A DNA stretch of 60,047 nucleotides from Pseudomonadota bacterium (lineage in GTDB: Bacteria > Pseudomonadota > Gammaproteobacteria > Burkholderiales > Burkholderiaceae_C): contig JAJZTW010000019.1 in assembly GCA_021847345.1 (NCBI GenBank), positions 1 to 60,047 of the forward strand. Reading direction: 5' to 3'. A program made the translations under genes and the position numbers. The notes beneath the pieces were generated by a model that was given only the letters and a program-made list of their open reading frames with translations, ran no database searches and was not told the DNA's origin. Shown piece after piece: positions 7,846-14,795 of the stretch. Positions within the stretch are counted from its first letter, which is position 1, and each line of letters starts with the position of its first letter.

Positions 7846-7964
7846 GAGGGAGTTGCTTGCCTCGCGTGAAAAAGCTGCCATTGTGCCAGCGCCGGGAGCT
7901 GCCAGCCCGGTCGAGCTGCGCGTGCAGGCCGTATGATCTGCGGGTTCTCGGCAACGCCGCATCC

Positions 7965-8603
7965 ATGTCCCGCCCGCCCACGCTCTACCTGGCCTCCGCC
8001 AGCCCGCGACGCGCCGAGCTGCTGCGCCAGATCGGCGTGGGCTTCGAGCCGCTGCTGGCCGACGCCGACGAAGACGCCGAGGCACTGGAAGCCGAACGCC
8101 CAGGCGAGCCCGCGGCGCGCTACGTGCGCCGGGTCACCGCGGCCAAGCTCGACGCCGCACTGCAGCGCCTGCGCCGGCGCGGCCTGGCGCCGGGCGCGGT
8201 GCTGTGCGCCGACACCACGGTGGCGCTGGGTCCTCGCATCCTGGGCAAGCCGGCCGACGCCGCGCAGGCGCGCGACATGCTGCGCGCGCTGGGCGGCGCC
8301 GAGCACCGCGTGCTCAGCGCGGTGGCGCTGGCCTGGCCGCTGGCGCACGCGCAGGGCGGCGCCAGCGCATGGCAGCGGGCGCAGGCGCTGAGCCGCAGCC
8401 AGGTGCGCATGGCGCCGCTGGCCGACGACGCGATCGACGCCTACATCGCCAGCGGCGAGCCCTTCGGCAAGGCCGGGGCCTATGCGGTGCAGGGTCGCGC
8501 GGCGGCCTTCATCGAGCACATCCGCGGCAGCTACTCGGGCATCATGGGCCTGCCGCTGTTCGAGACCTGCGCCTTGCTGCGCCGCGCCGGAATCGGCGCG
8601 TAA
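7965..8603 (+). CDS. maf: Maf family nucleoside triphosphate pyrophosphatase
   Basis: 212 residues. It opens with the Maf signature [16 protein letters not shown] and retains [21 protein letters not shown] and [14 protein letters not shown]. Maf proteins hydrolyse non-canonical or excess nucleoside triphosphates to monophosphates. The sequence resembles the dTTP/UTP pyrophosphatase subgroup (YhdE), but substrate is inferred. ATG 7965 is chosen because the conserved domain starts five residues later; an open extension to 7857 has no family support. rng begins 11 bases downstream, a conserved pairing. Confidence 0.93.
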
Positions 8604-8614
8604 CCCGACTGGAC

Positions 8615-10105
8615 ATGCAAGAAGATCTGCTGATCAACATCACGCCGCAGGAGACCCGGGTCGCGCTGGTGGCGCAGGCCGCGGTGCAGGAGATCCACAT
8701 CGAGCGAAGCCTCGAGCGAGGACTCGCCGGCAACGTGTACCTGGGGCGGGTCGTGCGCGTGCTGCCCGGAATGCAGTCGGCGTTCATCGACATCGGCCTG
8801 GAGCGCGCCGCCTTCCTGCACGTGGCCGACCTGTGGCAGCGCATGCTGGGCAACGGCGACCCGCGCCAGGGCAGCGCCGGCTCCGCGGCACCTGCCATCG
8901 AGAAACTGGTGTTCGAGGGCCAGTCGCTGCTGGTGCAGGTGATCAAGGACCCGATCGGAGCCAAGGGCGCGCGCCTGTCGACCCAGATCAGCCTCGCCGG
9001 ACGCCTGCTGGTGCACCTGCCGCAGGACGACCACATCGGCGTGTCGCAGAAGATCGAGGATCCGGCGCTGCGCGACAGCCTGCGCCAGCGCCTGGGCGCG
9101 CTGGCGCGCCAGCATGACCCGGCGGCCGGCACCGGGTTCATCGTGCGCACCAACGCCGAGGACGCGAGCGACGCCGAGCTGCTGGAGGACATCTCCTACC
9201 TGCGCAAGATCTGGAGCGCGCTGGACACCAAGGTGCGCACGGCGCAGGCGCCGGCACTGCTGTACCAGGAGCTGAGCCTGGCGCAGCGGGTGCTGCGCGA
9301 CCTGGTCACGGAAGCCACGCGCAGCATCCAGATCGACTCGCGCGAGAACCACGAGCGCCTGCGCGCCTTCGCCGCCGAGTACATGCCGGCGGTGGTCGAC
9401 AGGATCCAGCTGTATCGCGGCGAGCGCCCGCTGTTCGACCTCTACAACATCGACGCCGAGATCGAGAAGGCCCTGGGCCGGCGCGTGGACCTGAAGTCCG
9501 GCGGCTACCTGATCATCGACCAGACCGAGGCGATGACCACGGTGGACGTGAACACCGGCGGCTACGTCGGCGCGCGCAATTTCGACGACACGGTGTTCAA
9601 GACCAACCTGGAGGCGGCGCAGGCCATCGCGCGCCAGCTGCGCCTGCGCAACCTGGGCGGGATCATCCTGCTCGATTTCATCGACATGGCCAACGCGCAG
9701 CATCGCTCGGCGGTGCTCGACGAACTCAAGAAGTCCCTTTGGCGCGACAAGGTCAAGGTCACGGTCAACGGGTTCTCGCAGCTGGGTCTGGTGGAGATGA
9801 CCCGCAAGCGCACCCGCGAATCGCTGGCCCACCTGCTGTGCGAGCCCTGCCCGACCTGCAGCGGCCAGGGCCAGGTGAAGACGGCGCGCACCACCTGCTA
9901 CGACATCCTGCGCGAGATCCTGCGCGAGGCGCGCCAGTTCAACCCCGGCGAGTTCCGCATCCTGGCGTCGAACGCGGTGATCGACCTGTTCCTCGAGGAG
10001 GAAAGCGCCTACCTGGCGGAGTTGTCGGACTTCATCGGCAAGCCCATCGCGCTGCAGGTCGAGCCGGCCTACCACCAGCACCAGTTCGACATCGTGCTGC
10101 TTTGA
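8615..10105 (+). CDS. rng: Ribonuclease G
   Basis: 496 residues of the RNase E/G family, an Mg-dependent endonuclease that matures the 16S rRNA 5' end and degrades mRNA. The N-terminus MQEDLLINITPQETRVALV is typical of RNase G, followed by the S1-like domain (GNVYLGRVVRVLPGMQSAFIDIGL). The catalytic region contains TTVDVNTGGYVG and GGIILLDFIDM, with the metal-binding Asp residues. The Zn-link is CEPCPTCSGQG. The protein ends soon after the catalytic core, without the long scaffold tail of RNase E, supporting the RNase G call. Confidence 0.95.
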   Translation: MQEDLLINITPQETRVALVAQAAVQEIHIERSLERGLAGNVYLGRVVRVLPGMQSAFIDIGLERAAFLHVADLWQRMLGNGDPRQGSAGSAAPAIEKLVFEGQSLLVQVIKDPIGAKGARLSTQISLAGRLLVHLPQDDHIGVSQKIEDPALRDSLRQRLGALARQHDPAAGTGFIVRTNAEDASDAELLEDISYLRKIWSALDTKVRTAQAPALLYQELSLAQRVLRDLVTEATRSIQIDSRENHERLRAFAAEYMPAVVDRIQLYRGERPLFDLYNIDAEIEKALGRRVDLKSGGYLIIDQTEAMTTVDVNTGGYVGARNFDDTVFKTNLEAAQAIARQLRLRNLGGIILLDFIDMANAQHRSAVLDELKKSLWRDKVKVTVNGFSQLGLVEMTRKRTRESLAHLLCEPCPTCSGQGQVKTARTTCYDILREILREARQFNPGEFRILASNAVIDLFLEEESAYLAELSDFIGKPIALQVEPAYHQHQFDIVLL

Positions 10106-10955: not shown

Positions 10956-11876
<921 letters not shown>

Positions 11877-11898
11877 ACTCCTCCTTGTCATGGTGAGT

Positions 11899-11928
11899 AT
11901 TTTAGCACTCACCAGCTTCGAGTGCTAA
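11899..11928 (-). promoter_or_regulatory. Predicted sigma-70-type promoter of rpoH, overlapping CIRCE
   Basis: On the minus strand TTAGCA (11928-11923) is followed after 18 bases by TAAAAT (11904-11899), matching four and five positions of the -35 and -10 consensus. Both hexamers overlap the CIRCE arms. Transcription would begin near 11892, leaving only about 16 untranslated bases containing the Shine-Dalgarno. Confidence 0.55.
11902..11928. promoter_or_regulatory. CIRCE element (HrcA operator) upstream of rpoH
   Basis: TTAGCACTC, nine bases, then GAGTGCTAA: an exact match to the CIRCE consensus recognised by the HrcA repressor. It lies 26-52 bases before the rpoH start codon and coincides with the best promoter, so bound HrcA should exclude RNA polymerase. 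CIRCE is best known at groESL and dnaK. hrcA is not in this window. Confidence 0.93.
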
Positions 11929-11949
11929 AGGGCCGGGAAGTTCCCGGCG

Positions 11950-11966
11950 GCGCCCCCCGGGGGCAC
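11950..11966 (-). repeat. GC-rich REP-like motif directly after the GGDEF-EAL gene stop
   Basis: GCCCCC and GGGGGC arms meet at 11952-11964. On the minus strand the gene's TGA is followed at once by GTGCCCCC, the same octamer that follows the paaZ stop at 45837. It may act as terminator or repeat remnant. Confidence 0.35.
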
Positions 11967-14795
11967 TCAGCCGCCCGGGTTGGCGCCGGCGAGCAGGACC
12001 TCGAAGTCGGCGAGGGGCATGGGCCTGGCGAAGTGGTATCCCTGGAAGGCATCGCAGCCGTGGCGCATCAGGAAGGCCCACTGCGCCTCGGTCTCGACGC
12101 CTTCGGCCACCACGTTCAGCCCGAGGCCCTTGCCCATCGCGATGATGGTCTGCGCGACCATCGCGTCCTGCGCGTCGTGCGGCAGGTCGTCGACGAAGGA
12201 CTTGTCGATCTTGAGCTGATCCAGCGGCAGGCGAGTCAGGTACGACAGCGAGGAACTGCCGGTGCCGAAGTCATCCATGGAAAACGACACTCCGCGGGCC
12301 TTCAGCGCGCGCATCTTGTCGAAGGCGTCGGCCACGTTGTCGAGCACGGTGCTCTCGGTCAGCTCGATTTTCAGGCACGACGCCGGCACCCCGGACTCGC
12401 GCATCGACGCGAGCACGCCGTCGACGAAATCAGCCTGCGCGAACTGGCGTGCGCTGGCGTTGACCGCCACCACGAGGCCGCCGGCGCGCGGCGTTGCGGC
12501 CCACGCCGCGGCCTGCGCGCAGGCCGCGTCCAGCACCCATTGCCCGAGGGGAACGATGATTCCGGTTTCCTCGGCCAGTTCGATGAAGTCGCCCGGCAGC
12601 AGCAGGCCGCGCGTCGGATGGTTCCAGCGCACCAGCGCCTCGGCCCCGATCACCCGGCCCTGGCGGTCGAATTGCGGCTGGTAGTGCAGCACGAACTGGC
12701 GCCTTTCGATGGCTACGCGCAATTCGGACTCGAGTGTTGTTCTCCTGGCGAGTTCCACCTGCATGCGCTGCTCGAAAAACCGCAGAGCGTTGCGCCCGTC
12801 CTGCTTGGCCCGGTACATCGCCAGGTCTGCGTGCCGCAGAATCACCTCGGCGGAATCGCTGCTCCCATCGAACAAGGTGGCGCCAATGCTCGCCGTGCAG
12901 TAGAAGTCGTGGCCCTCGAGCTCGTAGACCCCGCCGAGGCTCAGCAGCAGCTTGTCGGCGATCCTGCCCGCGCGTACGGCTGCCTCGCGGGCATCGCGGC
13001 CCAGGCCCTCGAGCACCACGACGAATTCGTCGCCGCCGAAGCGTGCCACGGTGTCGGCTTCGCGCACCGTCTGGCGCATGCGATGCGCGGCCTGCAGCAG
13101 CAACTGATCCCCCGCCTGGTGCCCGATGGTGTCGTTGACCTTCTTGAAGTGATCGAGGTCGAGGAACAGCAGCGCGCAGTGCTCGCCGCTGCGCGCGGCT
13201 GCCGAGATGGCATGGGCCAGGCGGTCGCGCAGCAGCGTGCGGTTGGGAAGGTCGGTCAAGGCGTCGAAATTGGCCAGGCGCTCGGCCTTCGACTCGGTCT
13301 CGCGTTGGCGCGTGATGTCGACCAGCCAGCCCACGTGGTGCGTCACCCTGCCCTGCGGATCCTTGACCGCAGACAGGGTCAGGCGCTCGGTGCACCAGCT
13401 GCCGTCGTCGCGCCGATGCAGCAGTTCGCCTTGCCAGTAGCCCGATTCGGCCAGCGCCGCCTCCATGCTCGCTCGCACCTGGGCATCGCGCAGCCCGGGG
13501 TGGCTCAGCACCAGCGTCTTGCCGACGGTTTCGCGCTCCTGCTGCCCGGTGATGCGTGTGAAGGCGCGATTGACCCGCTGGATCACTCCCTGGGCATCGG
13601 TGACCACGATGCCGTCCTGGGCCTCGAAGGCCGTTGCCGCGATGCGCAGGTCGGCCTCGGCCTTGCGGCGCTCGCTGATGTCGATGCCGATGCCCAGCAC
13701 GGCCGGGCGGCCGAGGTAGGTGAAGGCGCGCCCGAACACCTCGGTGGGTACCGGCGTGCCGTCCTTGCGCAGTCCGATGAACTGGTAGTGGGCGCTGTCC
13801 ATTTCGCCGCGCAGGCGCTGGCCGATGCGTCCGAGCACCAGGTCGCGGTCGGCCTCACTGACCAATTGCTCCACGCGTACCCGATCCACGACTTCCGAAG
13901 GCGATGCGAAGCCGTGCATCCTGGCGAAACCCGGGTTGACGTATCGAAAAATGCCGTCCTGGATGATGTAGATGGCAACCACCGACTGCTCGACCAGCGA
14001 GCGGAAGCGCTGCTCGCTCTCGCGCAGCGTGCGCTCGGTCAGCACGCGATCCGTGATGTCCTGGATGGTGCCGCGCATGCCCACCGGCGCGCCCGAGGCG
14101 TCGAGCACCAGGCGCCCTAGGCCGTGCACCCAGCGCATGCGCCCGTCGGCCGGGCGCACGATGCGGTATTCGCGATCGAAGGGCTGGCGCCGCCCGACCA
14201 CCTGCTGCGCGAAATACGCGGCCATCGCATCGCGGTCCTCGGGAGCCACCAGGGCCGTCCAGCCGGCCACCGTGCGGTCGTACGCCGCGTCGATTCCGAA
14301 CAGGCGGTCCAGCACCGCCGAGCTCTCCCACCTGCCGCCGGCGATGTCGAGCTCGTAGCTGCCGATGCCGGCGATTTCCTGCGACTCGCGCAGCGCCTCC
14401 AGCGCCTGCGAGACCCGCTGCTGCGCGAGGCGGCGTTCGCTGACGTCGCGCGACGAGTTGAACAGCAGGCGCTGTCCCAGGATGTCCAGCGGCTTGCCGG
14501 ACACCTCGACCGGGAACACGCTGCCGTCCTTGCGCCGATGCAGGGTCTCGAACTGGGTGCGAGAGCTCGACTCCATCTGGGTCGACAGCTTGGCCCGCAG
14601 TTCGGCCTCGGACAGGCCGGCGTCCCAGAACGAGGCGTGCCTGCCGATCAGCTCGTCGCGCCGGTAGCCGAGCATGGAGCAGAACTCGTCGCTGACGAAC
14701 ACCAGGCGCCCGCCGGCGTCCAGAACGTGCAGGCCGTCGCTCGCATGGGCCAGCAGATCCTGCGCCTGCTTGCCGACATCCTCGGACAGTGTCAT
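11967..14795 (-). CDS. PAS-PAS-PAS-PAS-GGDEF-EAL signalling protein
   Basis: 942 residues without membrane segments. Four PAS domains with PAC tails occupy roughly 1-510 (e.g. ASDGLHVLDAGGRLVFVSDEF, VSERR, ITDR, ISERRKAEADL, ITRQRE tails). The diguanylate cyclase domain has GGDEF at about 587-591 preceded by an inhibitory-site RxxD (READ). The EAL domain starts near 719 (EALVRW) and keeps catalytic residues in VNASARQF, IELTES, DDFGTG, IDKSFV and EGVET. Both cyclic-di-GMP synthesis and hydrolysis are therefore possible. The signal sensed is unknown. Transcribed toward rpoH; the stop is followed by a CCCCC/GGGGG repeat. Confidence 0.93.
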   Translation of the reverse strand: MTLSEDVGKQAQDLLAHASDGLHVLDAGGRLVFVSDEFCSMLGYRRDELIGRHASFWDAGLSEAELRAKLSTQMESSSRTQFETLHRRKDGSVFPVEVSGKPLDILGQRLLFNSSRDVSERRLAQQRVSQALEALRESQEIAGIGSYELDIAGGRWESSAVLDRLFGIDAAYDRTVAGWTALVAPEDRDAMAAYFAQQVVGRRQPFDREYRIVRPADGRMRWVHGLGRLVLDASGAPVGMRGTIQDITDRVLTERTLRESEQRFRSLVEQSVVAIYIIQDGIFRYVNPGFARMHGFASPSEVVDRVRVEQLVSEADRDLVLGRIGQRLRGEMDSAHYQFIGLRKDGTPVPTEVFGRAFTYLGRPAVLGIGIDISERRKAEADLRIAATAFEAQDGIVVTDAQGVIQRVNRAFTRITGQQERETVGKTLVLSHPGLRDAQVRASMEAALAESGYWQGELLHRRDDGSWCTERLTLSAVKDPQGRVTHHVGWLVDITRQRETESKAERLANFDALTDLPNRTLLRDRLAHAISAAARSGEHCALLFLDLDHFKKVNDTIGHQAGDQLLLQAAHRMRQTVREADTVARFGGDEFVVVLEGLGRDAREAAVRAGRIADKLLLSLGGVYELEGHDFYCTASIGATLFDGSSDSAEVILRHADLAMYRAKQDGRNALRFFEQRMQVELARRTTLESELRVAIERRQFVLHYQPQFDRQGRVIGAEALVRWNHPTRGLLLPGDFIELAEETGIIVPLGQWVLDAACAQAAAWAATPRAGGLVVAVNASARQFAQADFVDGVLASMRESGVPASCLKIELTESTVLDNVADAFDKMRALKARGVSFSMDDFGTGSSSLSYLTRLPLDQLKIDKSFVDDLPHDAQDAMVAQTIIAMGKGLGLNVVAEGVETEAQWAFLMRHGCDAFQGYHFARPMPLADFEVLLAGANPGG

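Follow-up and report, generated by a model that had tools for sequence, protein, structure and literature searches.

In the window (the whole 60-kb stretch of DNA that was analysed) an exact copy of CIRCE, the predicted operator of the repressor HrcA, lies upstream of rpoH, which encodes the heat-shock sigma factor sigma-32. This copy overlaps two predicted promoters, a sigma-70 promoter with an extended -10 and a promoter of the sigma-E type. By binding there HrcA would probably block both promoters and keep rpoH low until its release. Repression by HrcA and activation by sigma-32 are commonly presented as parallel circuits, with Escherichia coli as the model for rpoH; a sequence-only reading of this DNA had proposed that here rpoH is under HrcA control, an interpretation that the genome comparisons described below support. 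The features of the region are collected in Table 1.

Table 1. Features of the rpoH upstream region in the window, with the basis on which each was assigned.
Feature	Position	Strand	Basis
Predicted -35 of sigma-E-type promoter, GGAACTT	11938..11944	-	GAAC offset recurrent in order copies
Perfect palindrome, GCCGGGAA-C-TTCCCGGC	11932..11948	-	between upstream gene and CIRCE; contains sigma-E-like -35
CIRCE, predicted HrcA operator, TTAGCACTC-N9-GAGTGCTAA	11902..11928	-	exact match; conserved before rpoH; co-occurrence with hrcA
Weak -35 of predicted sigma-70 promoter, TTAGCA	11923..11928	-	inside left CIRCE arm
Predicted -10 of sigma-E-type promoter, TCGAA	11917..11921	-	its first two letters close the left CIRCE arm
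Predicted extended -10 of sigma-70 promoter, TGCTAAAAT (hexamer 11899-11904)	11899..11907	-	right CIRCE arm plus three bases
Ribosome binding site, AAGGAGGAG	11878..11886	-	read from the sequence
rpoH (sigma-32), 304 aa from ATG 11870	10956..11870	-	scores over the cut-offs of TIGR02392 and NF005143; start codon chosen from the L003 sequence

All of the arm bases of the 27-base element (18/18) agree with CIRCE, and it is the sole match in the window at three or fewer mismatches. A chance match as its origin is ruled out by the absence of any match in 100 dinucleotide shuffles of the window and by the 6e-8 exact matches expected in 60 kb from base composition (71% G+C), and the perfect operator first described from the letters alone stands. 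The range originally given, 11899-11928, exceeds CIRCE because it took in three bases that complete a -10 hexamer. The whole genome (3.66 Mb in 117 contigs, 93% complete) holds two copies at three or fewer mismatches, one before rpoH and one before groESL. The window's 27 bases, spacer as well as arms, recur unchanged in a distant member of the class, G173 (C15:49106-49132), on a contig other than the one with rpoH.

The gene downstream was likewise identified correctly as rpoH, scoring 400.3 bits against TIGR02392 (cut-off 323.1) and lying above the cut-off of NF005143 as well. Its product contains the RpoH box. In-frame ATG codons occur at 11891, 11876 and 11870, and the last of these sits 7 bases past the ribosome binding site. 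ATG 11870-11868 is most likely the start codon, since L003, the closest relative found among the best named-genome rpoH loci listed (92% identical), has CTG in place of the ATG at 11876, and the ATG at 11870 is common to both. CIRCE then lies 32 bases before the start codon, and the predicted sigma-70 leader would be about 20-22 bases long, not the 16 or so estimated at first. The leader is short, as had been claimed, but the argument that it leaves too little room for an E. coli-type thermometer is weak, because the E. coli rpoH thermometer lies mostly within the coding region. The leader and some 230 coding bases folded no better than shuffles (z -1.20; 25 of 200 shuffles were as stable), which leaves an RNA thermometer over the leader or early coding region unsupported, and the only Rfam match in 11500-12100 was not a thermometer (IMPDH, sub-threshold at 19.5 vs 95.4 bits). 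As a candidate for autoregulation, the sequence upstream of rpoH offered a sigma-32-like match at 4 mismatches only.

CIRCE is widespread before rpoH in related genomes. Among the best 80 rpoH loci listed from named genomes it is exact in 72, has one mismatch in 5 and two in 1, and is lacking in 2 (78/80 in all); the two loci counted as lacking it are L031 and L033, the latter on a contig that starts 63 bases upstream. Spacers and distances vary among the named loci, so the agreement amounts to more than plain DNA similarity. For the order, an even sample of 150 Burkholderiales genomes was drawn, the window's included, and rpoH was found in 147; G029, G044 and G121 (no rpoH match at 1e-60) and G129 (rpoH truncated where its contig stops) were left out of the counts. 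With up to four mismatches allowed, 133 of the 147 rpoH copies from the remaining 146 genomes carry CIRCE (no mismatch in 56, one in 47, two in 23, three in 4, four in 3, and five or more in 14), and one shuffle of each upstream region never gave fewer than five mismatches. For the class outside the order, 83 genomes were drawn together with the window's own, of which 9 of 84 had no rpoH match at 1e-50 and were left out; here 52 of 75 rpoH copies from 74 genomes carry CIRCE at the same threshold, and the shuffles again never fell below five mismatches. Many of the sampled genomes are drafts. The search of relatives that the sequence-only reading had proposed thus found conservation at every level (78/80, 133/147 and 52/75), which rules out an oddity of a single lineage.

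The bases just past the operator indicate a promoter laid over it. The right arm, GAGTGCTAA, supplies TGCTAA, and the bases that follow complete an extended -10 element, TGCTAAnAT. The third base past CIRCE is T in 79/79 and the second is A in 77/79 of the set formed by the 78 named loci and the window; the T and the A are present in 131/133 and 111/133 CIRCE-bearing rpoH copies of the order draw and in 49/52 and 38/52 of the class draw. At groESL CIRCEs this T is found in only 2 of 14 (the comparison set, a subset of all matches, comprised 30 CIRCE loci labelled as 14 groESL and 16 rpoH). As the operator does not need conserved A and T bases beyond its arm, their constraint is most simply explained by an extended -10 promoter and supports placing the promoter over the operator. 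The two hexamers named at the outset, TTAGCA (11923-11928) and TAAAAT (11899-11904), are both present and N18 apart; the letters of TTAGCA are set by the operator, and its conservation is therefore uninformative about a -35 role. What the idea of a promoter on the operator had missed was a second one, of the sigma-E type.

This second predicted promoter, GGAACTT-N16-TCGAA at 11917-11944, fits the pattern GGAACTT-N16-TCnnA and has its -10 inside the operator. GAAC starts 16 or 15 bases before CIRCE in 21 + 53 = 74 of the 133 CIRCE-bearing order copies, with 0.37 expected per offset, and the window's offset (-15) is the commonest. GAAC was found in 86/133 order copies vs 3-6 of 132 in windows 60-200 bases further upstream, and near the operator in 1 of 14 groESL sites. 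The signature GAACnn-N16-TCnnA occurs in 63 order copies vs 20.8 when the letters of the CIRCE spacer are shuffled. Allowing spacings of N15-17, it occurs in 81/133 order copies (the -10 overlaps CIRCE in 76 and lies upstream in 5) and 39/52 class copies (32 overlapping, 7 upstream); the spacer-shuffled means were 26.0 and 16.9 and the maxima 35 and 22 (100 runs), a control that allows for the signature being partly given by the operator, the end of whose left arm can supply the TC. At anchors 150 bases upstream the signature was found in 0/132 order and 0/51 class copies. Among the named CIRCE loci 50/78 have it. Comamonas testosteroni ATCC 11996 (L005), for example, combines CIRCE with the sigma-E signature, the predicted -10s being TCTAA and TAATAT, and its genome has hrcA.

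The distribution of RpoE points the same way. The window's genome has rpoE (TIGR02939, 270.3 bits vs 236.15). Seven CIRCE copies belong to genomes lacking an RpoE match (TIGR02939 at 1e-50), and six of these have neither GAAC nor the signature. In RpoE genomes GAAC is present in 92/126 and the signature in 80/126, leaving 46/126 without it; Fisher tests of RpoE against GAAC and against the signature gave 0.003 and 0.014, uncorrected for kinship, with two pairs of the six sharing a genus. The seventh copy, that of G032, does carry the signature; the G032 genome, in which RpoE was not matched, has a completeness of 92%, and a congener of it has RpoE.

A competing explanation is that the sigma-70 promoter alone is real here, so that HrcA represses one extended -10 promoter and the sigma-E-like signature is a by-product of the GC-rich palindrome. 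GGAACTT does fall within that palindrome (11932-11948), 52 of the 133 order copies have no sigma-E signature, and L003 carries CIRCE and an RpoE gene with no GAAC at the expected place, the nearest lying 82 bases above CIRCE. On account of L003, a sigma-E step in the window's own lineage is likely, not sure. The window nevertheless matches GGAACTT-N16-TCGAA at exactly the offset that recurs in 53/133 relatives where 0.37 would be expected, and we consider the restriction to sigma-70 unlikely, while regarding it as the most serious competitor to an operator shared by two promoters. The palindrome itself may act as a further operator, or it may form the stem of a terminator for the upstream gene.

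That upstream gene, at 11967-14795, encodes a PAS-GGDEF-EAL protein, runs in the same direction as rpoH and ends 38 bases before CIRCE, so placed that read-through into rpoH is possible. Elsewhere in the window, Maf-family and ribonuclease G genes stand in tandem on the plus strand (7857-10105). If most rpoH transcripts started at a remote promoter, for instance the one serving the PAS-GGDEF-EAL gene, CIRCE would serve as a roadblock or an RNA hairpin; the co-directional arrangement agrees with this, but the T that completes the -10 in 131/133 rpoH vs 2/14 groESL copies argues for a promoter at the operator, and we judge the distant origin improbable.

The presence of the operator mostly follows that of hrcA. 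The window's genome has hrcA (PF01628, 216.4 bits, E 7.3e-64), as do 136 of the 150 Burkholderiales genomes, and all 133 CIRCE-bearing rpoH copies of the order come from hrcA genomes. Of the 14 copies without CIRCE, 13 are in genomes with no HrcA match and one (G083) is in a genome with an hrcA fragment containing a stop. These 14 span 7 family labels, and because three of the families (f4, f24 and f34) otherwise keep both CIRCE and hrcA in other sampled members, loss occurred more than once. Table 7 of PMC3135505 gives HrcA as absent in two Neisseria, which fits scattered loss. Elsewhere in the class the two are still clearly associated, though less strongly, with 49 copies having both, 18 neither, 5 hrcA only and 3 CIRCE only (8 discordant); one of the five hrcA-only copies is a second rpoH in a genome whose other rpoH copy has CIRCE. 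None of the Fisher tests is corrected for kinship. That CIRCE is a chance or relic sequence with no regulatory role is a reading we give almost no credence, since the few copies that depart from hrcA co-occurrence are outweighed by the 0/100 shuffles, by arms conserved across order and class while spacers vary, and by the degraded CIRCE arms of the hrcA-less genomes G033 and G216.

Several individual genomes depart from the general pattern. Allofranklinella schreckenbergeri (L031) has hrcA and an rpoH without CIRCE, an element almost always present in the other hrcA-bearing relatives that were sampled. In the class draw G163, G230 and G214 have CIRCE before rpoH and no HrcA match; draft gaps, divergent HrcA or relics are possible causes. 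At L181 (G033) and L319 (G216), both without an HrcA match, the sigma-E-like half is retained next to a degraded CIRCE; G077 and G118, labelled with the same genus as G033, both keep hrcA and CIRCE. G112 (L191) also has no HrcA match and keeps GAACTT-N16-TCTTA upstream of rpoH, and at the would-be place of CIRCE it has a perfect 9-9-9 inverted repeat, TCAGGCACT-N9-AGTGCCTGA, where a different repressor may have taken over.

From this arrangement a mechanism can be proposed. HrcA, with GroEL, would sit on CIRCE and cover the sigma-E -10 and both sigma-70 hexamers, excluding RNA polymerase from both rpoH promoters. The GroE titration model of HrcA is set out in PMC6032397; applied here, GroEL occupied by unfolded proteins would leave HrcA inactive. 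Release of rpoH would then yield sigma-32, and sigma-32 together with HrcA release would turn groESL on. The effect of HrcA on groESL would be twofold, one direct and one via rpoH, because in the window's genome groESL has a sigma-32-like promoter (CTTGAAA-N12-CCCCTA) followed directly by the only other CIRCE. Envelope stress would enter via sigma-E only with HrcA off the DNA, a predicted AND gate. Feedback of HrcA on its own gene was considered and rejected: the hrcA locus (L340) has no CIRCE within 6 mismatches, and sigma-32-like matches there were found only at 3 mismatches. In Stenotrophomonas maltophilia, a gammaproteobacterium, PMC6479208 reports no significant change in rpoH RNA when cells were held at 42 C for 10 min. 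When Xylella fastidiosa was starved of nitrogen, according to PMC3224663, hrcA was up at 2 h and rpoH later, an order of events that a simple repressor model does not predict. Both data sets sit awkwardly with the simple model, in so far as rpoH in these two species carries CIRCE.

A link between HrcA and rpoH is known in kind. Table 8 of PMC545781 lists, as a prediction, an exact CIRCE at -51 of Geobacter sulfurreducens rpoH: operator and gene are the same, and there too the heat-shock sigma factor is predicted to be under HrcA. It differs in concerning a single species outside the class, in its distance of -51 from the start, and in that the available text mentions no overlapping promoters or sigma-E input. 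For the beta-, gamma- and epsilon-proteobacteria that paper refers to Permina and Gelfand 2003, where beta-proteobacterial rpoH CIRCEs may already be listed. The suggestion that the HrcA-rpoH link joins two normally parallel circuits is supported by conservation and hrcA co-occurrence, but it is not new in kind. As to the sigma-E side, Bordetella bronchiseptica SigE transcribes rpoH (fam) in vitro (PMC3490749), which gives a Burkholderiales rpoH with an active sigma-E-type promoter just upstream; neither HrcA nor CIRCE occurs in the available text on this SigE, and none was found in that of PMC2194791. According to the same source (PMC3490749), E. coli rpoH P3 is sigma-E-dependent. Like the window, E. 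coli has a sigma-E-type signature upstream of rpoH, GAACTT-N16-TCTGA; unlike the window, it has no CIRCE within 5 mismatches in the 300 bases upstream, and it falls outside the control genomes with an HrcA match, whereas the window's genome has one. Within the window's genome the groESL operator (C13:707-733) is an exact CIRCE like the rpoH one; it differs in lying just downstream of a sigma-32-like -10, in having no sigma-E signature, and in being followed by bases that complete no -10. No overlap between CIRCE and a sigma-E promoter at rpoH was found in the titles and abstracts of the literature searched, which left most subscription journals outside. What the present comparison adds is the overlay of two predicted promoters and an operator on shared letters, its class-wide spread and its loss with hrcA.

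On a wider view, the rpoH promoter could be an ancient three-input switch of Gammaproteobacteria, Burkholderiales included, in which a 46-base stretch holds a sigma-E promoter, a sigma-70 promoter and an HrcA operator that share letters, and in which cytoplasmic stress (through HrcA and GroEL) and envelope stress (through sigma-E) would be combined before sigma-32. The E. coli layout, sigma-E without HrcA, would be a remnant after loss of hrcA, and G033 and G216 would be intermediates. On this broader proposal our judgement is evenly balanced. Because operator and repressor are lost in pairs, the model can be tested by comparing sister genomes. The arrangement would be a compact natural design in which a single repressor blocks a pair of promoters, each belonging to a different sigma factor. 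Should HrcA gate rpoH in the majority of lineages with hrcA, the two heat-shock circuits would form a cascade with GroEL as the shared sensor, of which E. coli would be a reduced case.
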